Source of the DNA: Bryoerythrophyllum caledonicum
Taxonomy: Eukaryota; Streptophyta; Bryopsida; Pottiales; Pottiaceae
DNA length: 64,000 nucleotides
Reading direction: 5' to 3'
Assembly: GCA_963971425.1 (NCBI GenBank)
Contig: OZ020515.1
Span: forward strand, 13,718,291 to 13,782,290
The notes below the pieces were generated by a model. That model was not told where the DNA came from and did not search any database. It worked only from the letters and a program-made list of their open reading frames with translations. Shown here piece after piece: positions 5,603 to 28,461 of this stretch (the stretch's first letter is position 1; each line of letters starts with the position of its first letter). A program made the translations under genes and the position numbers.

Positions 5603-6687
5603 GCTTGATTCTTGAACTCTGTCCCATTGTCGCTTCGGATCTTCACAATGCGTTGATGTAGTTGCGATCGAATGAGACTGTAGAGCTCTTGGAAACGGGC
5701 CAGCACCTCATTCTTATGCACTAAAAAGAAGACAAACCGAAAATGGCTGTGGTCATCTGTGAAAATCACAAAGAATCTGTGACCTCCATGAGAAGTCACA
5801 TCAAAAGGCCCTACCACATCTGTGTGGAAAAAAAAACCCGGNNNNNNNNNNNNNNNNNNNNNNNNNNNNNNNNNNNNNNNNNNNNNNNNNNNNNNNNNNN
5901 NNNNNNNNNNNNNNNNNNNNNNNNNNNNNNNNNNNNNNNNNNNNNNNNNNNNNNNNNNNNNNNNNNNNNNNNNNNNNNNNNNNNNNNNNNNNNNNNNNNN
6001 NNNNNNNNNNNNNNNNNNNNNNNNNNNNNNNNNNNNNNNNNTGTCGCTTCGGATCTTCACAATGCGTTGATGTAAGTTGCGATCGAATGAGACTGTAGAG
6101 CTCTTGGAAACGGGCCCAGCACCTCATTCTTATGCACTAAAAGAAGACAAACCGAAAATGGCTGTGGTCATCTGTGAAAATCACAAAGAATCTGTGACCT
6201 CCATGAGAAGTCACATCAAAAGGCCCCTACCACATCTGTGTGGAAAAAAAAACCCGGTGATCTGGCTCTCTTCAAATCTCGGTCAGCATCCGAATTCGTA
6301 GGAAACGATAAGCGATGTTGTTTCCCATGCAGGCATCCTTTGCATAGCGGTAGTGAACAGTCACCAGTTATACTCAATACCGAAACAGAGTGGTGCTTGG
6401 CCATAAACTTGACTACCTTAAGGTTTGCATGGCAGAAGCGCTCGTGCCAACGTCGGAGATCACGAGTATGAAGCGCAGCGGAAGCGTTGTGGGCCCATAA
6501 CCTAATGGAGATTCTTCCTCTTATTACTGAACTTCAATACACACGTACTTATGGTAGAGCAACAAGAACGACAAGAACATGAAATGACACAAAAACAACT
6601 AACTACAAGAGTCTCTTGAACATCTCTTGAACATCTCGACCAACGTCCAGAACATTCCATTGTCCAGAACATTCCATCCTCTAGAAC
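5603..6687 (-). mobile_element. Inverted, internally deleted copia remnant
   Basis: Read on the minus strand this shows the 3' part of the same LTR as the intact copia (6503-6687), a primer-binding site GGTTATGGGCCC (6491-6502), a few leader bases, and then a jump into the integrase-coding region (about 6465 down to 5603). That region matches 8740-9190 of the intact element. Gag and protease are missing. The intact element begins exactly where the inverted LTR breaks off, which suggests insertion into it or recombination. Confidence 0.75.
5842..6041. other. Assembly gap of 200 N
   Basis: Exactly 200 unknown bases. Sequence left of the gap (about 5630-5841) is repeated almost identically right of it (about 6042-6256), with a few single-base indels. 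The gap probably joins two overlapping contig ends, so one copy may be an artefact. Confidence 0.9.
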
Positions 6688-6977
6688 TATTGGAGTAAGT
6701 TGGAAGACCTTCACGTTTAGTGAGAGATTATGGACGTTTAGTTAGAATCTCTTGACGTGTTAGTAAGGTTTCCCCATATTAGAACAGTGACTTTTCAGTG
6801 GTTGGAATTGTTCTGGACGATGGAATGTTCTGGACATTGGTCGAGATGTTCAAGAGATGTTCAAAAGACTCTTGTAGTTAGTTGTTTTTGTGTCATTTCA
6901 TGTTCTTGTCGTTCTTGTTGCTCTACCATGAGTACGTGTGTATTGAAGTTCAATAATAAGAGGAAGAATCTCCAATA
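6688..6977 (+). repeat. 5' LTR of copia element (290 bp)
   Basis: Begins TATTGGAG and ends CTCCAATA, a perfect 8-bp terminal inverted repeat. Its first 100 bp recur at 11857-11956 with two differences. The primer-binding site follows immediately. The flanking bases on the left are AGAAC. Confidence 0.85.
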
Positions 6978-11856: not shown

Positions 11857-11956
11857 TATTGGAGTAAGTTGGAAGACCTTCACGTTTAGTGAGAGATTAT
11901 GGACGTTTAGTTAGAATCTCTTGACGTGTTAGTAAGGTTTCCTCATATTAGTACAG
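11857..11956 (+). repeat. 3' LTR of copia, first segment
   Basis: 100 bp matching the start of the 5' LTR with two differences (CCTC for CCCC, and T for A inside the target site). It stops at the left end of the MULE element. Confidence 0.9.
11947..11956 (+). repeat. Target-site duplication, left copy (ATTAGTACAG)
   Basis: A 10-bp sequence from the copia LTR, repeated at 28452-28461. Both copies have T where the 5' LTR has A, so they come from the same LTR. Confidence 0.9.
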
Positions 11957-12010
11957 GAGAAATGCTCATTCGTGAGCTATGAGCGGAGAGCGGAGAGCGG
12001 TGAGCAAAAA
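11957..12010 (+). repeat. MULE left terminal inverted repeat
   Basis: Starts GAGAAATGCTCATTCGTGAG and then carries GAGCGGAGAGCGGAGAGCGG. Aligned with the reverse complement of 28400-28451, the first 21 bp show 14 matches and the GAGCGG repeats follow at both ends. Confidence 0.8.
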
Positions 12011-12229
12011 AAATTATTACTTTTCAAGAGCGGTGAACAGAGAATTTAATTTTTTTTATTAACTTTCTAAATTAAAAGGACACTATTACTATGGATTATA
12101 TTTAGTAAAGAATACAATGAATACAACATAGATTAAACATAATCCGTTGTAATAATTGACATGTAAGTATGTGGTAAGTATGGTATTTTTTGGGCCATAA
12201 TACTTGAACAAAAATATTATGGGTGAATA

Positions 12230-12640
12230 TAATATAAAAGGAAAAACTAAGAGTTTTAAGCATATTTGTTAGAGAATTGCAATACTTTAAAGCTTTAGCA
12301 AATTTGAGCAGTTATTTTAGTTAAATTATCTTAGCTCCATTGCATATGACCAACAATGAGTGAATGAGCAAACTTTGACTCCACTTGGTATAAATTATTT
12401 TGCACTACTGAAGGTCTATATCTTCCACCATTGTATTATGCATGATGTTAGTTCCCTATATACCACTCATTAGAGGTAGAAAAGGGGTGTAGAATATTCA
12501 AAACTAGTATGCAAGGAGTACAGGTTCAAAAATCGTCGACTTTTAGAGTTTCTTTAAGAACTTGATATGTTTTGGAATGACAATAAAAACGGTCAATAAA
12601 AAGGTACACATCACAACTTGTAGTGGAAATAATAAAAAGT
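12230..12640 (+). repeat. Dispersed repeat family F, partial forward copy
   Basis: Contains the family's internal marks: an ACTTTGACTCCACTTGGT-like stretch, GCATGATGTTAGTTCC, AGAGGTAGAAAAGGGGTGTAG and the motif ATATGTTTTGGAATGAC. The same family recurs at 14385-15020 (reverse), 30560-31488, 43421-44240, 44294-45060 and 58066-58885. Confidence 0.6.
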
Positions 12641-13110
12641 AAAAACAGGTGCCTACCCGCAAGAATGAATGGGTTTCTAACGAAGCCCATAAACCAAGAT
12701 TTCATAATCTAGGTCATTCTACAGACCATGGCCCCTCTAGTTCCACGGAGAATGTTTTTGAAGCCCATGGTACTTGACAACGAGGTCATAAAGAATGGAT
12801 ACTCCCCAGAGCCGGACCTCAGAGTTCCCGTGATGTGATCGAAGTCACAGTTTACAACAGAAACCGTCCGGAACTCAAATTTTTTGCGATGATAATTAGT
12901 GCTTCACCAATATTATGTTGGCGGTCGCTTCATGTACATCATTCGTATAGATTTGCAAACTTCATAGCTTTGTTATTAGCGATGGTCACAATTAGCGATT
13001 GTCAGAGGTTGGTTCATAATGTAGATCAATTGAGATAAAGAAGCACCACTCTTGGAATTAGAGCCGTTGAAGGTCGCTTCGTCATTACTGTGGATAGTAT
13101 TGGACATTAA

Positions 13111-13939
13111 GAGCAAGCCCAGTCTTTCCCCGTCAAATGCTTCCGGCAACGGGAATTGACGGGGTCACTGTGGGAGGCGGGAGGGGAATGCCGAGACCCT
13201 GCCCCAGTCGACGCCGTGAAAGGGCTCCCGGCATGGACTTACCAGTGCCCCGTGGAGCTCTCGGAGCCATCGTGGCGGTCCAGCAGGGCATTAAAAAAAT
13301 GAGTTCCATAAGGGGAGGTTGTCAAGATGCTAACTAATTGCCTTCACAAAACAAGAGTGTCCATCACTTTCTCATAACAAATCCAAAAGAATGAATCAAA
13401 GCGACACACATAGACAAAAATTAGGCTTTAATGCAAATACAAAGTACAAAATCTATACATTTAAGTACATATATAAGAAATATATTAAAAGTCACCATCA
13501 TATTCAGAAGTTATGGAGGACCAATAATCTTTAGAAAATACTTTTATTTTTTTCAACATGCTTTTATTTTTTTCATTGGATCTCAACCAAAAGTTTATAA
13601 AAAAAAGTAAAAGCGTGTTGAGGTGTGCTTGAGGTGTACCTCAAGCACACCTCAACACGCTTTTACTTTTCTCATTGAATTTCAACCAAAAGTAAAAAAT
13701 AAAAGTGTGTTGAGGTGTGCTTGAGGTACACCTCAACACCTGCCATGGTGGCGTTGACTGAGTTTGTAGGGAGGAATATGTCTCCCTCCAAAGTTGCAAT
13801 TTTTGCCGAAACCGGGAGGTGGATGGCGAGACGCGGGAGGGTGGAGTGAGGATTATGGAGCATTTTGGGGTGCGGCTAAACCGCCGGGCCCGCCAAGCGC
13901 TGTTGGCGGGAGCCGTCAGCGTGGCGAGTGGGCTTGCTC
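13111..13939. mobile_element. PIF/Harbinger-like MITE inside the MULE
   Basis: Terminal inverted repeats GAGCAAGCCCA at the left and its complement at the right are flanked by TAA on both sides (13108-13110 and 13940-13942), the 3-bp TWA duplication typical of PIF/Harbinger elements. The 829-bp interior has GC-rich ends, an AT-rich centre and two foldback hairpins. There is no coding capacity. Confidence 0.7.
13603..13670. other. Perfect 33-bp inverted repeat with 2-nt loop
   Basis: Left arm 13603-13635 and right arm 13638-13670 pair at all 33 positions around GT; the core reads TTGAGGT-GT-ACCTCAA. A second related hairpin (12-bp arms) follows at about 13706-13739. It could form a cruciform or, if transcribed, a miRNA-like or siRNA-yielding hairpin. 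Confidence 0.9.
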
Positions 13940-14384
13940 TAAGAAGCGCAAATGGAAGATTATATTAGAGGAGGGACCCTTTATGTACTTCAGATCAGAT
14001 CATAATGAGTTTTTGTTGACTCAGGAGGTCTTCCGGTTGATTTGAGCCTATAATAGTATATATTTAACATGTGCTACACCGTAATTTGTTTGTGAAATTG
14101 AGGTCTATTCACAACATTGTAGAAATATACAATTGAACTGGCATTGTTTGTTTATATGCATGTTATTTAAGATGCACGTTTGCGTCAATGTCAGATGCAT
14201 GCCACACGGTTTGGTATTGCAATTTGGATGTGTAGAAGGGTGATTGAGAACTTTTGAGTGGGGATTTGAGGAAGATATTAGAGAACAAATTTGAAACATA
14301 TTATAGTTCAGACTTAAATTTGAGATTGTCAATACTAGCAAGTAACAATCTTTCCTTTCATATTGTTAAAAAACTTTGTGTGTA

Positions 14385-15020
14385 ATTAGTGAATAATTGC
14401 AATTTATACCAAGTCAAAAAATTTCACACATTGCCACACATTGTCATGCAAGGAACCAAAAAATCTCCTTTTTACATAAAACTTTGAGATCTTGTTATTT
14501 TCCACTTTTTTTTCTATTACTAGACATGGTGTAAACCTTCTCATTGACGGTTCGGATTATCATTCTAAAACATACTCTATTCCCAAAAATTAAAACGTGA
14601 ATTGGCACTTTTTGAACCTATACTCCTTGCACAACTATTTTGAACATGCTACATCCCTTCTTTACCTCTAAAAAATGGTGTACAAGGAATTAATATCATG
14701 GTGAACAGAATGGTAATGCATTTAGACCTTGTGTAGTGAAATAATTGGACACTAAGTGAAGTCAAAGTCTGCTGATCCACTAAACAATGGGATGAAAATG
14801 AACCATTTTTCCTACCTCGAACATTATAATCTTCCAATCTGTGCGGTCAAAGTTGATTAAATTTTGTGAGGATATTGTTTTTTAAGTGTCAAATGAGATC
14901 CTACGGTTAAATTTGGATGTACAATGTTTTGTTTCCTTCCACTCATTGCACTAGAATTTATAATTTTAAAGTGCTTTTGGTGTGAATTTGTCAAGGACAT
15001 TTAGGAGTTTAGGGTTAACA
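14385..15020 (-). repeat. Dispersed repeat family F, reverse copy
   Basis: Reverse complement of the family described at 12230. Its end reads GGGTTAAC near 15018, the family terminus (TTAACCC...). With the forward copy at 12230-12640 it forms an inverted pair around the MITE. Confidence 0.6.
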
Positions 15021-15309
15021 CGATCAATATTGAAAATGCTCGTTCGGGATGTCATAATTCTCATTATCAATGGGTCTGCACAAACAAAAATGATGTTGAA
15101 TAGGACAAATGTAACATCCACATTCCGAGGACCAGGTGCAAAAGCATATTAAAAAAGTAAAAGCACATGATTGAAACAAGGAGATATCATCCGATGGATC
15201 GCACATCCATGGGTCTGAGAACATGGGCGGCGGCGAAACCCTAGGACCATTTACCCTAATTTGAAGTATATGAGCGGGGGCATCGACTGCCTCTATCACT
15301 CAATCGTGG

Positions 15310-16200
15310 CTTTGCTCCTCACCACCTGCTCCACAGCCATCTCTCCTGCTCGGCAAGACTCGAGGTATTTCTCGTGCCTCGTGCAGCCCCTTCCCTCTTC
15401 TTCAATATGTTCTCTGCTTGCCGCTCAGGATTTGCGTCGTGAAGATCTTGATGCTGATGGACTGTGCACATGAACGTGAGCAGTTTCGAGAAGGAGGCAA
15501 GAAGGAGGCGGGGGTGACGTACAACTTCGAGGGGGCGGCGGTGACGAACGACTTGGCCGTTTCGAGTGCACAGGCACGTCCTGCCCTCCTGCACCGCAGT
15601 CCTTGAAGTACGTCCGCTGACCCAGCTTCAGCCCGATGTGAAGGGAATCGCCCCCGCCGCTCATGACGTCCGCTGCCACTGCTTTGCCTTCCACTGGCGT
15701 CCCTCTCCAGCGACTTCTCCTCGCTCCCACCTGACCGAACAGCGCCCAGGTTGAAGAACAGCCGGTCCTTTGCGGACCCCGGCGTCGCGAGAGTGTCCTT
15801 CACATTCTACTCGTCCGGCTCGCTCTTCACCAGCGTGCCAGGCTCGCCCCCGCCGCTGCCCCGACCCATGCCCACGCCCGGGATGCCTGACGTCACCGAC
15901 GTCCCCGAAGGCGTGCTGCTTCCCGCCGCTCTGTCGCTGCGCCGCTTTGTTGCTCGAACGCGTGGGAGTCGGAGAATCTGAGCGACAGACTTCACCTCCC
16001 ACTCCAGCCGCGCGCCTCCGCCGTACTTGCGCCCGCGGCTGCCCTCCATCCACAGGGAGGCGCCGTGACATCGTCGTGGGAGACCAAGGGTTTCATGTGG
16101 AGAACTTCGCAGTGCTCGCGTGCGCGGCTGTGTTGAGATGCGTTGTGAGTTTGAGAACGAGGAGGACGCCAGAAGAGTTTGAGAGACGAACAAGCTCAGG
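15310..16200 (-). pseudogene. Decayed coding fragment, possibly the N-terminal part of an SBP-box transcription factor
   Basis: A GC-rich island of plant-exon-like composition. Read on the minus strand, three overlapping frames give a discontinuous protein: RLEWEVKS near 16000, an in-frame stop near 15807, more open sequence, then a frame change into DSLHIGLKLGQRTYFKDC near 15640. The motif GLKLGxRTYFxD is a conserved N-terminal element of several SBP/SPL proteins (from memory of the family). The zinc-binding SBP domain itself is not present. The likeliest reading is a captured and decayed gene fragment, as in Pack-MULEs. The stop and frame change make it non-functional. Identity rests on one short motif. 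Confidence 0.4.
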
Positions 16201-16987
16201 CGAGAGATACTTCAGGTAATCTGTTTTGCGACCAATTTTATCTTTTTTTAATCACTGAAACTATATGTACGCGGTATTGTTGAAATTATATTTTACTTTT
16301 TCTAATCACTGAAACTATATGTACGCCCGGTCCCACAGTGGTAGTGGGCTGGCTGCATGTTATTGTTTGCACAATTGTTCTGTTAAGAATTTGAACGCGC
16401 TGACGGTACCAACGCTGGGCACAGTGGTTAGTCTTCGGACGAGGGGTGAAGGCCTCAAATTCTTAATAAGTTCATTTGTTGCATCTTTGGCATGTGGTTG
16501 GAGTTGGTTCAAAACCAGCACTTGGCAAAATCCTAACTAATTAATGTAGACTTTTCAGCTTAATGCTCATCCTTTTGACTTCTGAACTTTTGTAAGCATG
16601 TTAAAAGACTCGTTTTATGCTGATTTAACACATTGATCATATTGTAATTGTGATTGTATATTTATGTTGAACGTTATTTGTGGAGATAATTATTTCGCTT
16701 CATGTGCAGGTCAATTGCTTTGATGGAATGTTGTATGTTGTGCATACTTCTTCAACAAGGGAAGGGCAGATACTATTTTGACTACAATAACGGTCATAAA
16801 TTATATCTAAACAATAATATTAAATGTAGAAATTTACCAAATTGCAAATTGATTCTACAATAAATAGAATTTAGAAAAGGTCTAAATTTATAATTTGAAA
16901 TAGAAAATGATATTTCGAAAATAGAAGCCAACATTCTTTCCACTGAAGCGCAACAAACAGGGGAATGGAACATATTCAAAGAAATCG

Positions 16988-17115
16988 TCTCGTTGACCCT
17001 ATTTTGAAGTAGAACACTTCGGAGCTACAAAGAAATCGTCTCGTTACGAGACCTTGTTTTCAGGTGACCGTGGCATCAACTATCGGATTAGGCTATTCGC
17101 CTCTCGGTAACGAGA
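16988..17115. repeat. Left palindrome cluster of the MULE
   Basis: Three related sites lie just beyond the 3' end of the ParB-methyltransferase gene: GTCTCGTTGACC (half site, 16988), GTCTCGTTACGAGAC (17038-17052, 7-bp arms around one base) and TCTCGGTAACGAGA (17102-17115). They match the core of the intron array at 20077-20730. Confidence 0.8.
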
Positions 17116-17618
17116 AGTGAAGGCCAACCCTCATGCCACATTCTATATTATATTTAAAAAGAAAACAAACAATATAGAGAATAGATACATAACCTTTATG
17201 GTCTTCAAGCTTCATGATGAATTGTTTACTTGCATCATCTCAAAGAAACAAGTTATACATTATAAACTTTATTCCATTATTTTGAATGCGTTGTAAAGGG
17301 ACAATGGAGTTTAAATCTTCAAAGTGGAGTCAACTGACGACTCTAATCACTTATCAACGACGGCATCAATTTCAAAAAGCCTTATCACTGCAGGATCATA
17401 GAGTTGTCGATCTTTTTGTCTTCGTGGAGGGGACTTCATTGCTGCATATATGCTTGCCATTTGCAATGCGTATTCTGGCATATATGCAAACCGGGTAGGG
17501 CTGCATTTTATTCTTCTGCTGCGTGACATAAAAAGGATAAACATTGAGCTATGTCCATTACACAAACTGCGTTGTAAATGCCGAAAGCCCGAAAATATTA
17601 CTACACGAGCAATACTAC

Positions 17619-20600
17619 TTACTCGTTCACGCTGCGCTTACGCTTCTTTACACGTCCTGAAAGGTCGACGTCGATGAAGTCTTCTTTGTCAAACTGAACG
17701 AGGGCAGGCTTGATGGGCACCTCATCTTGATCAGTGGAGGAGCTTCCTTCATGGTCGCGTTCAATTTCACTTTGTAACGGCAACAAAAAGGTGTTGAAAA
17801 CCTCCTTTTCGGCCTCTAAAGCCACAATATGTCTTCCATATTCCTTACACAGCTTCACCGAGGTACCTGCAAGAAGCCAACATCAGATTGGTAGAACATG
17901 ATTTTCATTACCTCGAAACACATCAATCATACTTACCAACGCCTGCTGTGGCATCGAGAACAACACCCTTGACATCGGTGGCGGATAATATTAGCGATGT
18001 TAAGAAGTGAGTCCCACGCTCCTTTGGTCCGCGCCACACTCTACCATTTGTTGTCGTTTGAGTATCATTTGTGGTGAAGTTCCAGATTGCATCTCCCTGA
18101 CAGATGTCTATTGAATTTCCAGCAAGCGCAGGATGGGTCCGAAAATGAAACCGGGATATCCGGCGAATTGTAGCGGTTGAGTCGCGCACAATTAGTGCAA
18201 TCTTGAAAAGCGCCGTCAAAGTAGTCCCTGTCATTGCATATGTGTACATTCGATTCACACCGACCCATTCCTTCTGAATCCTGAAACCGAGGAGTGGGAA
18301 GTAATCGGAGAACATCTGTTTGGTAACGCCACCATCATCGCTGTAGATTAAGAACAATACGCCATCGTCATGTAGAAACTTGTTAGCATAAGCAAACAAG
18401 TTTTTCAAGCCAGTAGGGTCAACCACGTTCCATGCGGGAACTTCGTCTGATACGCCCGGCACTGCCTTGCCGTCGGGGATCTCTGCAATGACAAGGTCTA
18501 CCTTCGCTTCCTTGTCAACCATCTTTCCGTCCACAATGCATTTCTTTCCGTCATTGCAATCTGCAGTAAACTCAGCAATCTCCTGCCATATATCTCGGGA
18601 GATAGAGGCATTTAGAAGCAGGTTGGAAACTAAACGAGGCACACATCCAAGGGTTGGCATGACCGTGCGGTAAGGGGTGGGATCACCTAGTGAAGCTCCA
18701 GATGCAATTGAACGAGTTGGCTCCATTGACGCCGAGATAAGTGTGCCTGGAGACTTGACCAGTTGGCGCGTCTCTCTTCGCCGGATTGGCGCTGAACGCT
18801 CGAGTATCAATTCATTCACCGTAACCTCTTCCTCTTGTAAATCAAGGTCCTCATTCTCTCGTTCATCCTCTTGGCCGCCTTCATTGTCGTGAATGTGGAC
18901 AACGTCTTGAGAAAATGCGGTATCAATCTCTGTGGGTTCCGGTTGGCACTCTTCTTCCTCAGGTAAAGGAGACTCGCCGCGTTCTTCGCGTACCTTGTTT
19001 TCCGCCGCTCTCTTCAACGCATTCTTCTTTGCAACTCTACGTTCCTTGGCCTTGGCGTACTGTTTCTTCTTCTTTGATTCTGGACTCAGTGGTGGTAATC
19101 TTGGCTGCCGGGAAGCACGGCCTCTTCCCGTGGGCGCTACCTGCACCGCTTCAACTTCGGGTCCTGAAAGTGGACCAAGAAAATTCTTCGAATCCAGCTC
19201 TGTGTCATAGCAGTAGTTCTTGTTACACTCAACGTACCACAAGCATTCCTTCAGATGGTCGAGGGAAAACACGGACTTCTGATATGCATTATACATGCAA
19301 GTGTCTGAGTTGGTTGGATAGGCAGACTTCATCCAGTCGGGTACTCTAAAAATCGCATTCTTGCCAAACAGCTCATGGCGAATGTAGCGGTAAATGAACC
19401 GCTTGGCAATATCTTTCCGGCCCTTCACGTCTTCCCACTTTGTTAATCGTTGGAACGGTGAAGTTCCACCAAAGACACCCGGGTATGCATGCGTCCATAG
19501 TCGACATTTCCAAGTTTCCAAGTACAATGTCCATTCTTCTACTTCAACATCTGGATTCAGGTTGAGCTGCTCCAATACATCGTCGATGTCCTCCGCGATT
19601 TCTTCTTGAAGCTGCATTAGCAAACAATAGATTTAGCACATTCAACCTCACATCATCACATGTTGCATGATCACTTACAAGTGCCCAGAATACTGCTCGA
19701 TCGAGGTACAACTTCATTTGAGATTCTGAACATGGTTGAGGCCAGTGCTTCTCCTTCCGGTAAAAACTGGGACTATTCCAGATTTTCAACCACTCCACTT
19801 TATACTTTGCAGGCACGGGCGATGTCGCAATAATTTGGAGCTTTTCCAACCCCATGTCAACCTTGTCAATGTGATACTTTCCGTAGTGTAGACGAACCTG
19901 ACCAATCCAACAACATGAATGATAAATGTGCAAATTTTACACTAACCATTCCTTTGAGCAATTTTTCTCTACTTCTATGCATGATGCAACATATTGGTGC
20001 ACTTCACATTGGAAAACCACTTAGAAATTACCAAAATCACCCGTTGACATGGATCCGCCATAGGCCCTGAAATCGGGTCTCGTCACGAGACTTGTTTTCC
20101 GGGTCTATGGCGCATCAATGCCGAGCTTGCTAACGGCCTCAATGGCAAGCCGGTCGTTGATGCCTAGCTCACCCAAAAAGCATGCCTCGTTACGAGACTT
20201 GATATCAAGGCCACCGGGTGATCAATGCCAAATTTGCCATTTGGTTCCAAGGCAAACGGGGCATTGATGCACCGGAGGCCTTGAAAGTGTGTCTCGTTAC
20301 AAGACCTATAATCAAGGCCACCTTCCATCAAGGCCGGGCTTGCTAATGGCTACCACAGCAAGCCAGGAAAGTACGCCCTAGACGTCGCTAAAACATGTCT
20401 CGTAACGAGACATGATAAAAGGGTCACCGAGGCATCTATTCCAAAATTGCTATTAGGTATCACAGGGAACTTGGTATTGATGAAATGGAGGCCCATATAA
20501 TGGGTCTAGTTACGAGATCCAATTTCAAGGCCTCCGGCGCATCAATACCAAGAGTACTAATGCTCATCAAGGCTCATTATAGACTGATGCCTCGAGAACC

Positions 20601-23183
20601 AAAAATATTGGTTCTCGTAACAAACCCGTGTTTTGGGCTTCCAAGGCATCACTCTATGGGGTGCTTGCTGAACTCTAATGCCCTGATGTTTCATGGCCTA
20701 GCGGCCTTGAAAACACGTCTCGTTACATCCTCAGATTTCAGGCCCCTGACAACCAATAAAAAACATCATGGCATCCCATACCATCTTGACCATGATGAGG
20801 AAGAACAATGACATTACAAAAAGATGACAAGAAAAACTTGGTTGATTCAAACCTGATCAAGGAACTCACGCCCTAATTCAGGGTTGGCCACAGCCGCGAG
20901 CTTCCCAAAGCGCTTTTGGAGTTTCATCTTCTTGGCACATAGTCCCTCTTCGACAAACTTCCGTAACTCCACACCGCTCCGCTTTGTCTTTTCAATCTCT
21001 AATTTGTATGCAACTCGCTCGTTTGAGGCTGCCTCTTGTATCTCGTCCTACTCCAGCATATATCAACATTAGAAATACTGAAATACTTGATTTGCAATAG
21101 TATATGTATGACACCTTACCTGGAATAAGATTTTCACCATTTGACTTGCAGGAATTGGATACCACGCATCCCTTTGTCTCTTGAGACACTTGTTGTACGC
21201 CATCTCAGGAATCAAGTCCTTGAAGTATGAAATGTCTCGTTGTCCAAATATGCTCACCCTGTCCAGTTCGTGCATTGTATTCGTCTTTATGTGCGCCTTC
21301 TCTGTAGCACTGTTTATCATGCACAAACATTCAGTCTTGATTTCAAATCCAACAATGTGCATAATATGTAGTAGACTTACTTGTTCACAGCATGCATAGC
21401 CGCAAGTATCTTCGGAAATCCTTTCGGCCCAACATCAAGGATGATGCTCTCTGGTTCACCATTCCTTTGCATGAACTCCATGTCACCAGCCTTTCTTTCC
21501 TCCAAGAACTCCCTCCAAGCTTCATAGCGGTGGTTGCCGTCGTAGATATAGAACATCTTTCCACTCAGATGCTCAAGATCCGCATCTCCCTTCAACCGTT
21601 CTTCAAAGTCTTTGTTGATTATGATCCACTCTTCCGACCACTGCTCGACCACTGCGCTTGACACTGCCATCTCCTCTCCTTCACGACCCGTTAGTGCAAG
21701 ATAGAAGACGGCCGTTCCAGGTCGATAACCATGCTCGAACTGGTCCATCAATCTGTGTTTGTCAGTCTCTTGCACGCTACGAAGCTCCGGCATTGGCACC
21801 ATGCGGCAAAGAGGCACGCGTAACCTGTCGAACTTGTCCTGTGGCTGTCGACGCATGTACGTGATGGCTGCAAAGGAATCAGGGTTGTAAAGTATTCCCA
21901 TCCGCTTCTCAATCTCCTTCACATCAATCTCTTCCTCCCTGCCAAGATTGTCACCGTCGTCCTCCACCATTGCCATCTTCCGTCCCCTCCCCTTCTTCCT
22001 CTTCCCTTCAATCGCTGGGCTACCATCTGACCCTTCCATTGAGAGATCCAGGATGGCATCCACATCAGCCTTGGCGCCTTCAACATCGGCGTCTGAGGCG
22101 TAGGCATGTTCACCCTCTTCCGCACTCATCTCTTCATCATCACCCACAACGTTTTCGGCATTTTTCTCCTGGCCGTCGCCGCTACCGTTGGCGCAATAAG
22201 TGTTCTCACCCTCCTCGTCCACATTCTCCATAGCCTCGTCACCCCTCTCCTCCTGGTCAGCCGCCTAAACCAATCACACAAGGACAAAATCCGGATTATA
22301 CCTATAACAAACAAATTTCACACCCAGAAATCCAGAAAGCCTTCAAAACCCTCAAAACGCACAAACCCACAAACCCTAAACCTCAAAAACCGAGATAATT
22401 GTTCAAACCCTAATTCCTCCAAGACCGCAAAACCTTTCAAACACACCTAATTTCAGACCTACAAACTATCCAATCTATTGTGAACGGACCTGTTTTTGCA
22501 ACTTCCTCTTGCGAATGTTCCTCTCAGACTTCCTCACACTCTTCCTTCCGAACTTTTTGTATGAATTGACTCCATAACCTTTTACCAATCTCACATGTGT
22601 TCCCCTCATGGCAATGCGCTCAACTTAATGACCAGCATACAAGCAACGCTACAAAGTGATAGCACTAACTCGACCCACAAATTCTATCCACCACATGAAA
22701 AGGAAAGGACTTCAGCTTGGCCTCCATCCCTCTCTTTATTGTGAGAAATTGGTGACATGGCAACCGCGACTAATCATCATTATTTAACACCTTGACTTCT
22801 AGAAGGCGGCTTTTCATTTTCTACATCCTTGTAGCTCCAAATCAGAACCCACTAGACGACACATTAGATGAAAAAAATACCTGAATGTCTGTTAAGCGGG
22901 ATGGCTCGAAAGCTACTTCAACCTCCCTAGCGACGCACTCTGCTGTATGTGCTCCAATCACTTCCAATGGCGACATGTCAACTAATACTAGTACCTCTTC
23001 TTCGAGGATGGGAGTTGTTGGTGAAATCCGTCTAGCCACTGTTGTTGCAGGTAACTTAGCAAACTCTCCACCTAGGCGCCTCTTCGTCACCCCAACGTCT
23101 GCGGGCATTTTGCAAATCTCCTTTCCCTCGCGGCGCCGTCTTGCACGCGTGATCGCACCGCATTCCTCCTCGCGCAGATCCAT
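17619..23183 (-). CDS. ParB/DGNHR-like domain fused to a DNA-methyltransferase-like domain (multi-exon)
   Basis: Exons (minus): 22881-23183 (optional first exon), 22490-22609, 21381-22264, 21120-21309, 20853-21047, 19679-19897, 17937-19611, 17619-17866. All junctions are GT-AG and in frame from the ATG at 22609, giving 1176 residues. Joining the optional exon needs an unusual GAG acceptor, so the start at 22609 is preferred. The N part is acidic with a basic KRKKGRGRK patch. A ParB-like segment follows: RLRVPLCRMV, then YIYDGNHRYEAW with the DGNHR signature near residue 282. A basic, nuclear-signal-like linker follows. The C part has the circularly permuted (beta) methyltransferase order: a motif IV position DLVIAEIPDG near 907, motif X-like ERGTHFLTSLI, then motif I VVLDATAGVGTS across the last intron, followed by GRHIVALEAE. 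The catalytic DPPY/SPPY is changed to EIPD, so activity is uncertain. ParB-methylase fusions are known mainly from phages and bacterial mobile DNA. Here the gene is intron-rich and sits inside a eukaryotic transposon. Confidence 0.75.
20020..20790. repeat. About seven ~107-bp palindrome-bearing tandem units in an intron
   Basis: Located in the intron between exons 19679-19897 and 20853-21047. The 15-bp core starts at 20077 (GTCTCGTCACGAGAC, perfect arms), 20184, 20291, 20397 (perfect, extended to 9-bp arms at 20395-20413), 20504, 20612 and 20717, a spacing of 105-108 bp. Later units are more degenerate. Between cores each unit has a second dyad: AAGGCC...GCATCAATGCC on one side and GGCATTGATGC...GGCCTTGA on the other, so a whole unit could fold as a long hairpin. 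It is not a protein-coding repeat. Confidence 0.85.
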
Positions 23184-23299
23184 CTGAAAGAGAGGCTACT
23201 TACGGTCTGATATCCACCCTTTCTACTAAGTCGATATATCTAGGGCTATCTCATTCCATGCTACATTCAAACCTCGTTCCCTATAACACCCTCCATCGG

Positions 23300-23785
23300 C
23301 ATGTGCTCACATCTATTTTAAGTCCAAAATATCTGTCTACTGACCTTTCCACTGACGATTTGTTCTATCTTTACAATTAGGTGATTTGAGAATCCTACAA
23401 GGATTTTATATGAATTCATAATTTTTGGTAGTATTATTTTCTTAACTAAGTAGAGACTTGCGCCGCTTCTCTACCTCATTTCAACCGATACTTCCCAAAT
23501 ATGAAAATCCGTCGAAGCAAGGACTGTCTAATTCTTGACTGCGGAAGGCTGCTTTACACCTTCTTCATCAGCATTCTACTTAAGTCCAAAAGATCTGTTC
23601 ACTAACCTTCCCACTGACGAATTGTTCTATCTTTAAAATTAGGTGATTGTTGAGAATCCTACAAGGAGTGGAGATTTGCGCCGCTTTTCTCCCTCCTTTA
23701 AAGCAAGACTTTCCAATTATGAACATCCATCCGAGCAAGGACTGTCTAATTCTTAAATGCGGACAGCTACTTTACACCTCCCTAG
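23300..23785. promoter_or_regulatory. Tandemly duplicated ~260-bp block between divergent genes
   Basis: The 838-bp spacer between the ParB-methyltransferase gene and the transposase gene contains two diverged copies of a block. AAGTCCAAAATATCTG at 23320 recurs as AAGTCCAAAAGATCTG at 23582, and both copies contain GCAAGGACTGTCTAATTCTT followed by TTTACACC. It probably forms part of a shared bidirectional promoter region. No clear TATA box was identified. Confidence 0.55.
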
Positions 23786-24021
23786 GCATCCACTGAAAGA
23801 ATAATGATTGTTTTGAATTATATTCATGGTTACAATTCAAATTTTATTTTAGATCCCTTCTTTTAGCCCTGGCAAACGCTGTTTTTCAACGATCACCCTT
23901 TCAATATCCAATGGCTCCTTCTCTCTTAAAGTATCTTGATGTAATACATATATTGACCTTCCATCTCCATATTCCAATACCCTTCTAGAGTTTAATCTCA
24001 CTTACCTGTCTCGATATTCTC

Positions 24022-27000
24022 ATGACTTCCTCCTCTCGGTCTACTTTTCCCGCCATGGTTATGCTCCGTGCAAATGGCATTGGCGATCCTGTTGCGTATC
24101 CTTTGAGTGATGAGGGGTTTGCAACAGTTACCAGTGCGGCGTTAAGTGTTCGATTTTGTTTTCAACAGCAGAGTATATGTGTCGAGGAGGAAGTCTATGA
24201 TGATGACTGTTTGAAGCTGTTGTATACAACACCTCGACAAACGGTAGTGAATGAGAGTTTTGACAAAGAGTGGAAACTTGGAAAAGGCCAATACAGGGTC
24301 TATGGTCGCCTAGATTCACAGGTAAGTGCGTCCTCTATAGACCTTACTTCTCGTCAATCCACAACATGTAGTATGCAGACACTGCTTCCTGCTCTTGTCA
24401 ATGTTAAGATCGAACCAGACACTGAGCCTGTCATCCTACTCTCATCTGACAATGAGGACACCCCCCCTAAGACTTGCCCTCCAAAGCTAAGTGTTCTTAA
24501 GTCGTGTCGTCCTAGAGCCACTTCTTTTACATCTACTCCACCGATATCCTGTCCCCCCATGTCTTGCTCTCCGAAACAGGACAAGGTACTTGGTATCGTC
24601 AGTGTTATTGCAGGTCTGAAGCGGTTGTCTTCTCGTGTTGGCGGCAAGAATCCATTGAAGAAATTGGACTTTGACATCATACCACACGAGCAGGTCAACT
24701 GTCTTCCCGCCGATTTCAATGGCAATGTGATATTCGAACTACCACCCGCTCCACGATCAGCGTCATCTACACAGGCTCGTAACATGCATGGCATGGACAA
24801 GCGGTACGATGGTCACCTCTGGACTAAGACAATCACGACAAACATCATGAATGACGATGGCCTCCACTTTCGTACATCTAAATGCGTTGGGCATCTGCGT
24901 TGCGAGAACGTCAACTGCGCGTTCGTTCAACGAGATAATCGTATTTCGGAAGTGAACGAGCTGGAGTTTGATGGAATGACATCGATGACATTTGAGGTAG
25001 GTCAGAAAGCTCCCAAAAACACGCTACTTTGCAAGATCTGTGGAGAGCCACCAATGTGTATTGCCACGTGTGATGCTGTAGTGTATTATGTGAGTGGTCA
25101 GCGCCACTGCACTCGTGCTTGTATCCACCTTGGTAGACATGTGCATCCTGTTAAGATTGGTGCCTATCGTGAGGTGAAAGATAAGATCAATAGTCTAATA
25201 AGTGAGCAAGTAGAGAGAACTCCACGAGCGACTAAGAGTGCCATTGTGTTAGAAGCTAGCAAAGAACTCCTTGGAGAGTTCCTGTTGAGTGAAGAGGGTG
25301 AACCGCGGAACATCCTCAGTGTCGATGAGTTAGCCCCCATGCTAGATAAATGCAAAGACCTAGGATCCCCTAGCATTCGAAACAAGGTGGTGACGTTTCG
25401 GTACCTTAAGAGGTACGGTGTCATGGACGCTATCCTTAAACTTAGGTCAATGAGTAATTGGGCGTTTGTACAAAATAACAAATTCCCGAGTCAAGGTTCA
25501 GAAGCGGCTGTAGGAGGAGAAGCCAAAGTCTTTGTCTTCAAGATGTCCGAAGTTGGACCAGGCTCGGGCGTTGACCTTGTAAAGCGGATGCAACCGGGCA
25601 ATGATCTGGAGAATGCATGGTTGATGTTCGACCACGTCAAACGCCTAATGGATTGGACAACCATGGGTTGTCACGTTTATGACACAACATATTGCAGGGT
25701 GATGACCATTGCATGCTGCGACTTGATGTCGGAGGATAAAGACGCGCAAGTACTATTCTGGGAGAACCTAAATGACGTGATGGGACGACATGGTGTGGCA
25801 TGTCCGGCTTTCAAAGGATTCATGGCAGACGGTGCTCAGGCAAACTGGAATGCGGTGAGAGCTGTATATGGAGGCGGAGAAGCCATGGTGGACAAGGAGC
25901 GAACATGTCTTTTTCATTGGGCACAAAGTATGATCAAGTATACAGAGAAGTGCATTGCCGAAGGATTTCAAGAGCAACATAAGAGCCTGTGTAACCAATA
26001 CAAGAAGGCAACCACCATGGAGGATGCCGATAGACTATACGACGCGCTTCAAGCATGGTATAGGATATCCGGAGCTGTTTCGGAAAAGGGTTTCGAAAAA
26101 ATCACTACTTGGCTTGGATTCTGGCATTTTCGTTACCGTCAATGGGGTGGATTTATGACCACGGTATTGCTTCTCTTTCGGATCTGTATGTTGTCTTGCG
26201 TCCCTATATGATGTGATTGATACCCTAGGTCCCTGAGGTTTCGCTTTTCATGTGTTGTTACAGACATGGGTTTTTATGACTGGTCACTTGGCTTTTTAAT
26301 TCTTGATTTTTCACATTGTTGTTGTTCTATTGCAGAACATGACCGCCGATGAATTGGCCGAAGTGCCTTCATGCAATCTAGCCGAGACCATTCACAACAA
26401 ATGGAAGCAAGCCTCGGGGAATAGAAGTCCCGACTTATACGTCGCAACCGTCGACGACTACGTGCGTGCATTCCTGCAGGTTGTGAACTATTATCAATTC
26501 CTCAAGGGTGATGTAGGTGGAACGGGGCCTAGTAAGGAAGAGCTAAAGCTCCGAGTAGCCGAGAGAAGAGCTCAAAGGACTGGCGATCCTAGTGTGCTCA
26601 AGGAGTCTATGCTAGGTATGCCTGGGGCGGTAGAATTCTGTATCCGCACAACAAACAAGGCCGGCGAAGAGGTTTTTGGTTCACGCAAGCGCAAAGCAAA
26701 CGTGCCAATTGGTGCAGAGGAGGAATCTCATCGACCGGATAAGGTCAACTTCTCTTATCCCCGCTATACTTCCAACCCTCTTCCCATCATCGATGAAGAT
26801 AACGGCGTCCGTGTTGACCTAGGCGTCTCTGATGATGATCTGTCTCCGATACAACAAGCACAAGTGACACCATTGTTGTCTCTAGTTCAAAGGGTTGGAC
26901 TACGCCGTGTCACAGCAGTTCAAGAGACCCATGTTGCATTGACGGAGTGGCACATTGCTCGGTTGCCAAAGAACTCAGCAAAGGCTTGTTGGGCACAACG

Positions 27001-27811
27001 GGCCGTAACAAAGAAGAAATGTGAGGAGAGGATTGTGAGACGTGGAATAGCAACTCCGGCACCAACATACAGTGGTTTTTATCGACACCCAACGAAGACT
27101 GTCTTGGAGCCCACTGAATTCTACTTTTGCAACGATGACATTGATCGGTGTGTGAAGGATACAAGGCGTAGGTGGGTGGTTCAATATAAGAAGAATCAGG
27201 ATAGGCCTCCTATCCCCGATGTATGGCCTGTTGTGGTGGGTACTAATCTTACACGTGGGGAGGTTGAGGATCTCGAGGCGGCTGGATTTCAACTCCCTCA
27301 AAGGCAACACGTTCCTCCAAGTCGATTGTTTTCCAACGATCGGCCACCAAAAGACTTGAGTTCGATCCCTGTGCCCCTTGATGCTGCCAAAGTTCCTTGC
27401 AAGAGGGATGGAAAGGGGGTGAAGCGCACCTCCAAGGCTCGCAATGAGAAACAAAGAAAGTCAATGGGGTCCGTTGACTCCCTCACGGCGTCCATTAAGT
27501 CCGTCAGAATGCTCCCAGGTCCTGGGTTGGGGTGTCACATTTCCCTTGTTTCTCTTGGTACTCCACCCGAAATAGCAACCTATTCCGTTACAGTGAGTTC
27601 ATTCCCCCACTGTTCATGTCCTTCGTACAAGAAGATGTCAAAGACATTTAGGGGGAGGAACCAATATTCTCATTGCAAACATCTCTATTTCATCCTCTTG
27701 AAGATTTGTGGATTCAAACCTACCATTGAATTCATCCATGCTTCTACCTTTAGCTGGAATGAGGTGAAGGAGGTGCTTGAACATGGCATTTTGACACACC
27801 CTTGGACTTAG
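24022..27811 (+). CDS. MULE-type transposase with zinc domain and SWIM finger
   Basis: Two exons, 24022-26163 and 26336-27811, joined in frame through a GT-AG intron, give 1205 residues. Residues ~280-375 form a Cys/His-rich zinc domain (TSKCVGHLRCENVNC ... CKICGEPPMC ... HLGRHVHPV), like the WRKY/GCM1-type DNA-binding domain of some transposases. The DDE core shows HVYDTTYCR near 553, GFMADGAQANWNAV near 599 and the CxxH motif CLFHWAQS near 629. NLAETIHNKW, directly after the intron, is a candidate for the Glu region. The C terminus has a SWIM zinc finger CSCPSYKK...HCKHL near 1140-1163, as in MuDR/FAR1-type proteins. The frame is unbroken. It is divergently transcribed from the ParB-methyltransferase gene inside the same terminal repeats. 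The superfamily call is from motifs only. Confidence 0.8.
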
Positions 27812-27989
27812 TATTTTTTTGTCTATTTCTTAATATAGAGGGAATCACAATTCTAGCCCAAGACTTCAAAGTAGTGGCAAAGAGAACATGGAAATGTAGT
27901 TGGTGTATTTGGATTTATTCAAATCATTATGTTTTTTAGCATTCATGTCAAATTAATTCCATTCATTTCAGTAATCGTAGTGTTTGATG

Positions 27990-28062
27990 TCTTGGTACCG
28001 AGAGGTGACGGATTTGATATCCTGGTACCGAGAAGTGACAATTTGATGTCTTGGTACCAAAA
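27990..28062. repeat. Right palindrome cluster of the MULE (three ~30-bp units)
   Basis: Three tandem units with palindromic core TCTTGGTACCGAGA (27990-28003), TCCTGGTACCGAGA (28020-28033) and TCTTGGTACCAAAA (28049-28062), lying 3' of the transposase gene. The outer TCTyG...CGAGA resembles the intron core TCTCGTTACGAGA and the left site TCTCGGTAACGAGA. Confidence 0.75.
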
Positions 28063-28399
28063 GGAGACTGTAGGAAGACAATTTCATCTTTGATTGTATT
28101 CTTCATTCTTACAGTTGTTGTGTGCAATCTTTTTATACCTTTATATCATTGAATATGGTGAAGGAGATAACAGTCATTATAAAATACAAATAAGTACAAA
28201 TTTGTCATAATATATCATTGTTTATTTAAAAAAATTAAGAAGGTGCTGCAATAATTTACACAATTTTGAGACATTGAAAAATTCTAGTTTTAGTTTTTTT
28301 TTTAAATCTAAAAATATACCAATTCTTTCCTGAATTTTAGAAATATATTTGAATATTCTTGATATCCTTTATTTTTCTCTGCTCTCAATGGCTGGAATT

Positions 28400-28451
28400 T
28401 TTGCTCATTGCTCTCCGCTCTCCGCTCTCCGCTCATGAACAAGCCTCCCTC
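28400..28451 (-). repeat. MULE right terminal inverted repeat
   Basis: Reads CTCCGCTCTCCGCTCTCCGC on the plus strand and ends ...CCTCCCTC at 28451. Its complement starts GAGGGAGGCTTGTTCATGAG, matching the left end. Confidence 0.8.
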
Positions 28452-28461
28452 ATTAGTACAG
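28452..28461 (+). repeat. Target-site duplication, right copy (ATTAGTACAG)
   Basis: Identical to 11947-11956, and followed by TGACTTTTCAGTGGTTGG, the continuation of the copia LTR. Confidence 0.9.

Follow-up and report, generated by a model that had tools for sequence, protein, structure and literature searches.

What use might a moss DNA transposon have for a gene that joins two parts of bacterial type, a ParB-like segment and a methylase-like fold? The question is raised by a 64,000-nucleotide stretch of Bryoerythrophyllum caledonicum (GenBank contig OZ020515.1; C2:13718291-13782290 in our numbering), hereafter the window, in which a Mutator-like element (MULE) appears to carry such a gene beside its transposase. 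An earlier note on the window had described a MULE-like transposon with a ParB-methyltransferase gene, and had suggested that the element may mark or shield its own DNA, or direct its own transposition or its escape from silencing. Our preferred answer, to which we give a rough probability of 0.55, is that this second gene, called the passenger below, encodes a sequence-specific self-recognition system acting like VANC of the VANDAL MULEs. The ParB-like N-terminal half would read palindromes, TCTCGN3CGAGA in lineage A, which form arrays in non-coding parts of the element itself. The methylase-like C-terminal half, its catalytic tetrapeptide lost, would serve as a module for binding S-adenosylmethionine (SAM) or DNA, or in some altered role. 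As a result, the element's chromatin may be kept active, or its expression and transposition tuned, as VANC does for VANDAL MULEs. We infer from the sequences that the protein binds the palindromes with an anti-silencing or regulatory outcome, and the element may well escape silencing, for which the palindrome arrays give indirect support.

RESULTS

Palindrome arrays and the passenger gene

The passenger lies on the minus strand, from 22609 to 17619, and is transcribed divergently from the transposase; its seven exons, separated by six GT-AG introns, give an open frame of 1,176 amino acids (Table 1). The intron between the exons ending at 20853 and beginning at 19897 holds an array with a unit of about 107 bp and the motif GTCTCGTWACGAGAC. 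At up to three mismatches this motif matches seven times in the window, six of them within the element; 0.75 matches were expected, and the maximum in 100 shuffles was 4. Chance palindromes were dropped as an explanation, since no shuffle of the window reached seven and the expectation is 0-0.2 per element. Exact TCTCGN3CGAGA was found neither in the window outside the element nor in loci F, G and H, which are described below.

Genome-wide searches covered the 437,360,962-bp assembly, and 11 further loci were opened (A, B, C, D, E, I, J, K, F, G and H). Single letters denote loci, W being the copy in the window and A, B, C, D, E, I and J further copies of lineage A; passenger lineages, which are distinct from these copy names, are A, B1, B2, C and D. 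Copies D, E and J, whose passengers differ from W by ~10% at silent sites, retain the 107-bp array. Every lineage has an array of its own: 107 bp in lineage A, 108 bp with TCTCGGACCGAGA in B1, 129 bp with TCTCGTTCCGAGA in C, 140 bp with TCTCGTTACGAGA in D and 84 bp with TTTCGGTACCGAAA in B2. Locus K has seven copies of TTTCGGTACCGAAA in an 84-bp array and no TCTCGN3CGAGA. K also holds an 18-bp palindrome, TGCTTCGGCGCCGAAGCA, three times (L028:5064, 6626 and 7266), perhaps a second type of site.

The B1 and C arrays, for which one locus each was opened first, lie at the place homologous to the intron array of lineage A. When the place of the array was predicted at four unopened loci, one each of B2, B1, C and D, an array was present at all four. 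The B2 piece, which comprised the array region and not the passenger gene itself, bears the palindrome of K, and the B1, C and D pieces bear TCTCGN3CGAGA. The surrounding intron did not align among A, B1 and C (blastn, E up to 0.01), matches being confined to exons and a few short pieces elsewhere.

Arrays at such places might also belong to an autoregulator or copy-number brake, which would restrain both genes by binding palindromes within its intron and close to the promoter that the two share. The position of the arrays, in the passenger's own intron in A, at the homologous position in lineages B1, C and D and upstream of the gene in B2, agrees with this idea, as does the divergent arrangement of the two genes. 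However, a factor of benefit to the element would more readily account for selective retention, and we consider a brake rather unlikely.

Palindrome type and the ParB-like stretch

Transposases of B1 and B2 are about equally near to that of lineage A (75-77%), and that of C is at 62%. The ParB-like stretch (148 amino acids) is ordered differently, with identities to A of 64% in B1, 59% in C and 40% in B2; whole-exon tblastn against A gave 66% for B1, 48% for C and 39% for K. Palindrome half-sites are common to A, B1 and C, and the B2 palindrome differs. Because B2 differs in both the ParB-like stretch and the sites, and C shares the sites, palindrome type appears to go with the ParB-like gene and not with the transposase. 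Moreover, equal transposase identity together with very different passenger genes in B1 and B2 suggests that the passenger module has been exchanged between elements.

The same comparison bears on the possibility that the arrays are transposase-binding sites, or hairpin or replication sites, and that the second gene acts elsewhere. Transposase sites usually lie subterminally, and TTGGTACCGAG-like sites do occur in right subterminal arrays (unit 29-30 bp), ~400 bp inside the terminus of both A copies and of K. The internal arrays, by contrast, seem to track the ParB-like gene, as B2 against B1 illustrates, and we find this explanation distinctly improbable.

For the genomic distribution of TCTCGN3CGAGA, we analysed the 50 places listed, all within the first 31 Mb of C1; 34 of them fall into nine clusters and 16 are singletons. 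Six of the nine clusters (at five loci) lie within 20 kb of a match to the terminal inverted repeat (TIR), the passenger or the transposase, compared with 1/16 singletons (Fisher p = 0.003) and 3.3% of random positions. Three of these six clusters are near a TIR only. Of the three clusters outside that distance, two are flanked by passenger exons and one is a C-type array with a C-type flank, in which the sequence read contains no passenger exon. A general genomic satellite was dropped as an explanation, since the clusters go with the passenger gene.

The methylase-like half

The C-terminal part of the passenger matches the Pfam profile N6_N4_Mtase (E = 2.9e-6, 27.8 bits, cut-off 26.7), although only over profile positions 141-217 of 221, around motif I. 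Against PDB it gave weak matches to DpnA (E = 0.0024) and CcrM (E = 0.066). The DGNHR segment, whose namesake residues are invariant across four lineages, resembles ParB and DndB by its motif; sub-threshold Pfam matches were to DUF1015 (E = 0.0023) and DndB (E = 0.068), and a ParB-like phrog matched at E = 0.057. The divergent gene that the earlier note had read, with a DGNHR segment and a permuted methyltransferase fold, is therefore upheld by the frame and the profile match, its ParB part staying below threshold.

Relatives of the whole protein are scarce. Searched against 5.8 billion proteins, the spliced passenger had no match among 7,218 candidates, and its largest exon had a sole match, P0053 (42%), among the 7,999 candidates scored, more having existed. 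No passenger relatives were found in viral contigs and prokaryote genome contigs. In phages, 44 records match weakly around motif I; among the 20 listed, 16 are annotated, and 16/16 are called methylase or methyltransferase.

In the permuted N6_N4 fold the target base is handled by motif IV, D/N/S-P-P-Y/F/W. This canonical tetrapeptide is present in 0/23 copies read: motif IV is EIPD in 8/8 lineage-A copies and in P0053, DIPE in K and E/Q-V/I-P/S/R-D/N in 12/12 further loci, which were hand-picked from divergent matches. Locus E (L020) also contains a second, distant passenger-type gene (25-55%; G000:C2:32451256-32453665) with DLKD at this position. SAM motif I is nearly canonical in lineage A (DATAGVGT), apart from changes in copies A, C and E, and is less well preserved in other lineages. 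A genome search with PF01555, in which 150/235 candidates were scored, gave eight matches that belong to a different repeat family. The one opened, L064 (G000:C3:24300-25700), has the near-canonical DQPF in a neighbouring open frame, and the loss of motif IV in the passenger lineages is probably derived because of this. Of the name 'ParB-methyltransferase' in the earlier note, the methylase fold stands; the label 'methylase' is doubtful, since the protein may not methylate when the canonical motif is missing from all copies.

These data also weigh on the proposal that the protein is an active amino-methyltransferase (writing N4-methylcytosine, 4mC, or N6-methyladenine, 6mA) that marks the transposon carrying it, at the palindromes or close by, as proposed for a relative in Ectocarpus. 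Such an enzyme would agree with a profile match above the Pfam cut-off, with the near-canonical SAM motif I (DATAGVGT in W, followed by GRHIVALE), with purifying selection, at pN/pS 0.24, on the exons of the methylase part and with DQPF in the L064 relative from the same genome. On the other hand, motif IV reads EIPD, EVPD, QVPD, DIPE, DLKD or similar in 23/23 copies, and a change from SPPY to APPA abolishes activity in the bdelloid enzyme N4CMT, according to the accessible part of that report (PMC8885841). Ordinary amino-methylation by the passenger thus looks quite unlikely from its residues.

Copies and selection

The family to which the element belongs is large. The TIR core GAGCGGAGAGCGG occurs 641 times in the genome, compared with 8 for a control pattern, with many facing pairs among the 100 places listed. 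We scored 60/3,171 candidates for transposase exon 1 and 77/3,639 for the main passenger exon. The 62 scored transposase matches comprise 18 at 93-100%, 34 at 68-81% and 10 at 60-62%; two loci are each split into two among these matches, one of them within the closest 18. A divergent passenger lies within 20 kb of 18/18, 11/34 and 9/10 of these classes, respectively. Among 80 scored matches to the main passenger exon, 18 are at 91-100%, and 13 of these 18 have no stop in that exon.

Both genes are present in the seven opened copies of lineage A, and K combines a transposase at 76% with a divergent, distant passenger (28-43%). Target-site duplications measure 10 bp in five copies (W, A, B, C and D), 9 bp in I and 8-9 bp in K; none was found for E and J. 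The copies that the earlier note had called for, full elements with both genes inside matching ends, therefore exist, six of them (W included) with 9-10-bp duplications. Ends with a transposase only, which that note had set against its own reading, are found in part: all 18 closest matches carry the passenger, and in a distant 7-8-kb group that shares the TIR core, all three loci opened (F, G and H) have a degenerate, distant transposase and no passenger match, with candidate duplications of 8-10 bp whose ends are less certain.

Both genes are free of stops in W, B, D, E and J (the passenger from the ParB exon on), and the other three lineage-A copies have one or two stops. Over all pairs of the eight copies, the pairs not being independent, the ratio of nonsynonymous to synonymous differences (pN/pS) is 0.24 for the passenger and 0.20 for the transposase. 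Both genes are under purifying selection. A passive passenger, that is a host gene fragment captured once in Pack-MULE style, has some appeal because MULEs do take host DNA, and the left arm contains a GC-rich gene-like stretch. Nevertheless, several lineages have the gene at the same place, in the same orientation and with similar exon blocks, and the main exon is open in 13/18 of the closest copies with low pN/pS, so that such capture is scarcely credible. The passenger is part of the transposon and is maintained as such.

The element and its insertion

Coordinates are collected in Table 1. The 10-bp duplication ATTAGTACAG occurs twice in the window on searching both strands, each time flanking the element. 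When the flanks are rejoined with one duplication and compared with the uncut sister long terminal repeat (LTR) of the same copia, 145/148 bases are equal and a single ATTAGAACAG is present. Hence the insertion is real and younger than the copia insertion, and the split LTR reported in the earlier note is confirmed. Misassembly was dropped as an explanation, with the empty site and the multi-copy family speaking against it. The GAG... inverted ends seen by that note are 54 nt long and 80% complementary, with 97% over the inner 29 nt.

The transposase is also intact as had been claimed, with two exons encoding 1,205 amino acids and a sole stop at the end. It has 52 relatives that are 45-69% identical among proteins from public genomes and metagenomes; in the 53-sequence alignment D614, C640 and H643 never vary, and at least 90% of sequences have D565. 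We take the E of NLAETIHNKW to be the catalytic residue, and the N-terminus presumably is zinc-finger-like, judged by eye. Pfam scores stayed below cut-off for Transposase_mut, at E = 0.02, and for SWIM, with 13.5 bits (E = 0.053) where the cut-off is 19.6; the MULE profile PF10551 did not match in Pfam, and the MULE/Mutator-type profile signal was weak in 2/53 sequences. No transposase relatives were found in viral contigs. In the accessible part of a published account, MULEs are defined by target-site duplications of 8-11 bp and TIRs of 14-500 bp (PMC6446971), and the duplications and TIRs of the element lie within these ranges. The label MULE-like is given because of duplication length, inverted ends, the D, D, C-x2-H residues and the N-x-AE layout; the element is a DNA transposon of this kind, recently mobile and apparently autonomous.

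Table 1. Features of the element and its surroundings (window coordinates)
Feature	Position	Strand	Remark
Element	11957-28451		16,495 bp; inside copia LTR
Left target-site duplication, ATTAGTACAG	11947-11956	+	Empty site supports
Right target-site duplication, ATTAGTACAG	28452-28461	+	
Left TIR	11957-12010	+	GAG... and GAGCGGA repeats
Right TIR	28398-28451	-	
Uncut sister LTR of same copia	6688-6835	+	Empty site
Transposase exon 1	24022-26163	+	Conserved D, D, C-x2-H
Transposase exon 2	26336-27811	+	NLAETIHNKW; SWIM-like C-terminus
Passenger first coding exon used	22490-22609	-	Upstream boundary uncertain; present in A copies
Passenger exon with ParB-like DGNHR segment	21381-22264	-	Conserved part about 21381-21826
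Passenger exon	21120-21309	-	
Passenger exon	20853-21047	-	
Passenger exon	19679-19897	-	
Passenger exon, most of permuted methylase-like fold	17937-19611	-	EIPD at motif IV position, 18472-18483
Passenger last exon	17619-17866	-	After SAM motif I
Tandem palindrome array, passenger intron	20050-20727	.	Unit about 107 bp
Best array sites, TCTCGN3CGAGA	20078-20090, 20185-20197, 20292-20304, 20398-20410, 20505-20517		0-1 mismatch
Isolated palindrome, TCTCGTTACGAGA	17039-17051	.	Just downstream of passenger
Right subterminal tandem array	27983-28068	+	30-bp unit; TTGGTACCGAG-like sites

Several features of the left arm are noted in addition. The left 5.6 kb is common to W, A, B, C and I and mostly absent from D, E and J. 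At 13111-13939 a short element that resembles a miniature inverted-repeat transposable element is nested, with inverted ends GAGCAAGCCCA/TGGGCTTGCTC and TAA on each side, as judged by eye. Inverted arms of 133 nt, 75% complementary (12400-12532 and 14609-14741), are a possible older nested element. The GC-rich gene-like stretch lies at 15402-16219 (66% GC in 15500-15999); its hand-joined reading had no Pfam match, and what we take by eye to recall a plant transcription-factor exon is unsupported by Pfam. Outside the element, a run of N (assembly gap) at 5842-6041 lies upstream of the copia element.

DISCUSSION

Several observations weigh against a self-recognition system. Palindrome columns change only modestly less than the rest of the intron (2.3% versus 6.0%; Fisher p = 0.038; rank 2 of 107 phases), and similarity had guided the choice of sites. 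Sequence searches gave the ParB part no match to ParBc in Pfam, to NCBIfam or to PDB. The co-variation argument uses one or two loci per lineage, and the genomic count of TCTCGN3CGAGA, 505, is below that of the reversed control, 623, so that the signal lies in clustering. The arrays might instead be used by the transposase or fold into hairpins. Moreover, the two genes are not always found together: for 23/62 transposase matches no passenger was scored within 20 kb, for 43/80 passenger matches no transposase was scored, and the passenger of lineage D (45%) has none scored nearby. Two of those 23 were checked; in K the passenger is a more distant one, and at the L054 locus a palindrome array is present.

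A more specific form of the self-recognition system can be put forward tentatively. A eukaryotic ParB-parS-like module may have been taken over by a MULE lineage; its ParB-like protein, joined to a methylase fold of altered catalysis, would load at lineage-specific palindrome arrays, spread over the transposon and keep it open. Sites and protein would co-evolve, and every subfamily would protect itself alone. This extension is possible, yet we hold it with clearly less conviction than self-recognition as such.

One of the closest known systems is Sola1-1_Ec32 of Ectocarpus, with green and red algal cases cited in the same paper (PMC12477816; accessible part). Like our element, it is a giant DNA transposon (21.5 kb), with a 1104-amino-acid gene for a ParB-like and N4C/N6A-methylase protein opposite the transposase. 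Unlike our element, it belongs to the Sola-1 transposase superfamily, and the red algal carriers are giant EnSpm elements with accessory genes. The likeness to the passenger is one of description, the accessible text giving neither target sites nor the state of motif IV.

Another is VANC of the Arabidopsis VANDAL elements, an extra gene of a MULE that encodes a sequence-specific DNA-binding protein with arrayed non-coding targets. VANC motifs form tandem arrays in introns and differ between related transposable elements. In contrast to the passenger, a ParB or methylase likeness is not described in the accessible part of that work, the motif YAGTATTAY is non-palindromic and demethylation has been shown for VANC (PMC5735166). 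Bdelloid N4CMT shares the eukaryotic setting and the bacterial permuted N6_N4 methylase fold, but as far as the accessible text describes it is a host gene with a chromodomain and SPPY, an active 4mC writer (PMC8885841), whereas the passenger is transposon-borne, has a ParB-like part and lacks SPPY. Fungal transposons with TET/JBP genes are likewise DNA transposons with a gene of DNA-modification type, and differ in the enzyme and in the transposons (PMC12730594, accessible part).

The earlier note knew of no described MULE with a ParB-methylase. Extra open reading frames of MULEs include PMD, FAR1, SET, OTU and others, with methyltransferase unmentioned in the accessible part of the source (PMC6446971), and the word ParB is absent from a review from 2026 on how plant transposable elements capture genes (PMC13317346). 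We found no description of a ParB-methylase MULE or its binding sites in the literature searched, most subscription papers being outside it. Within that literature the note's claim holds for the carrier; the class of passenger is already known from algal transposons in the accessible part of PMC12477816. The class of accessory gene to which the passenger belongs was described in transposons recently, and its carrier here, a MULE, is new to the literature searched.

What this genome offers for the class is a set of candidate target sites, and a specificity series of five lineages with two unlike palindrome types in one genome. Algal ParB-methylase genes come without named target sites or tested activity in the accessible part of their description (PMC12477816). 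In addition, our data caution that, in the moss passenger family, the half with the methylase fold may not methylate. With the candidate sites, the specificity series and this warning, the function of such proteins for transposons becomes directly testable. If our reading is true, MULEs would have reached VANC-like self-recognition by a second route, the passenger.

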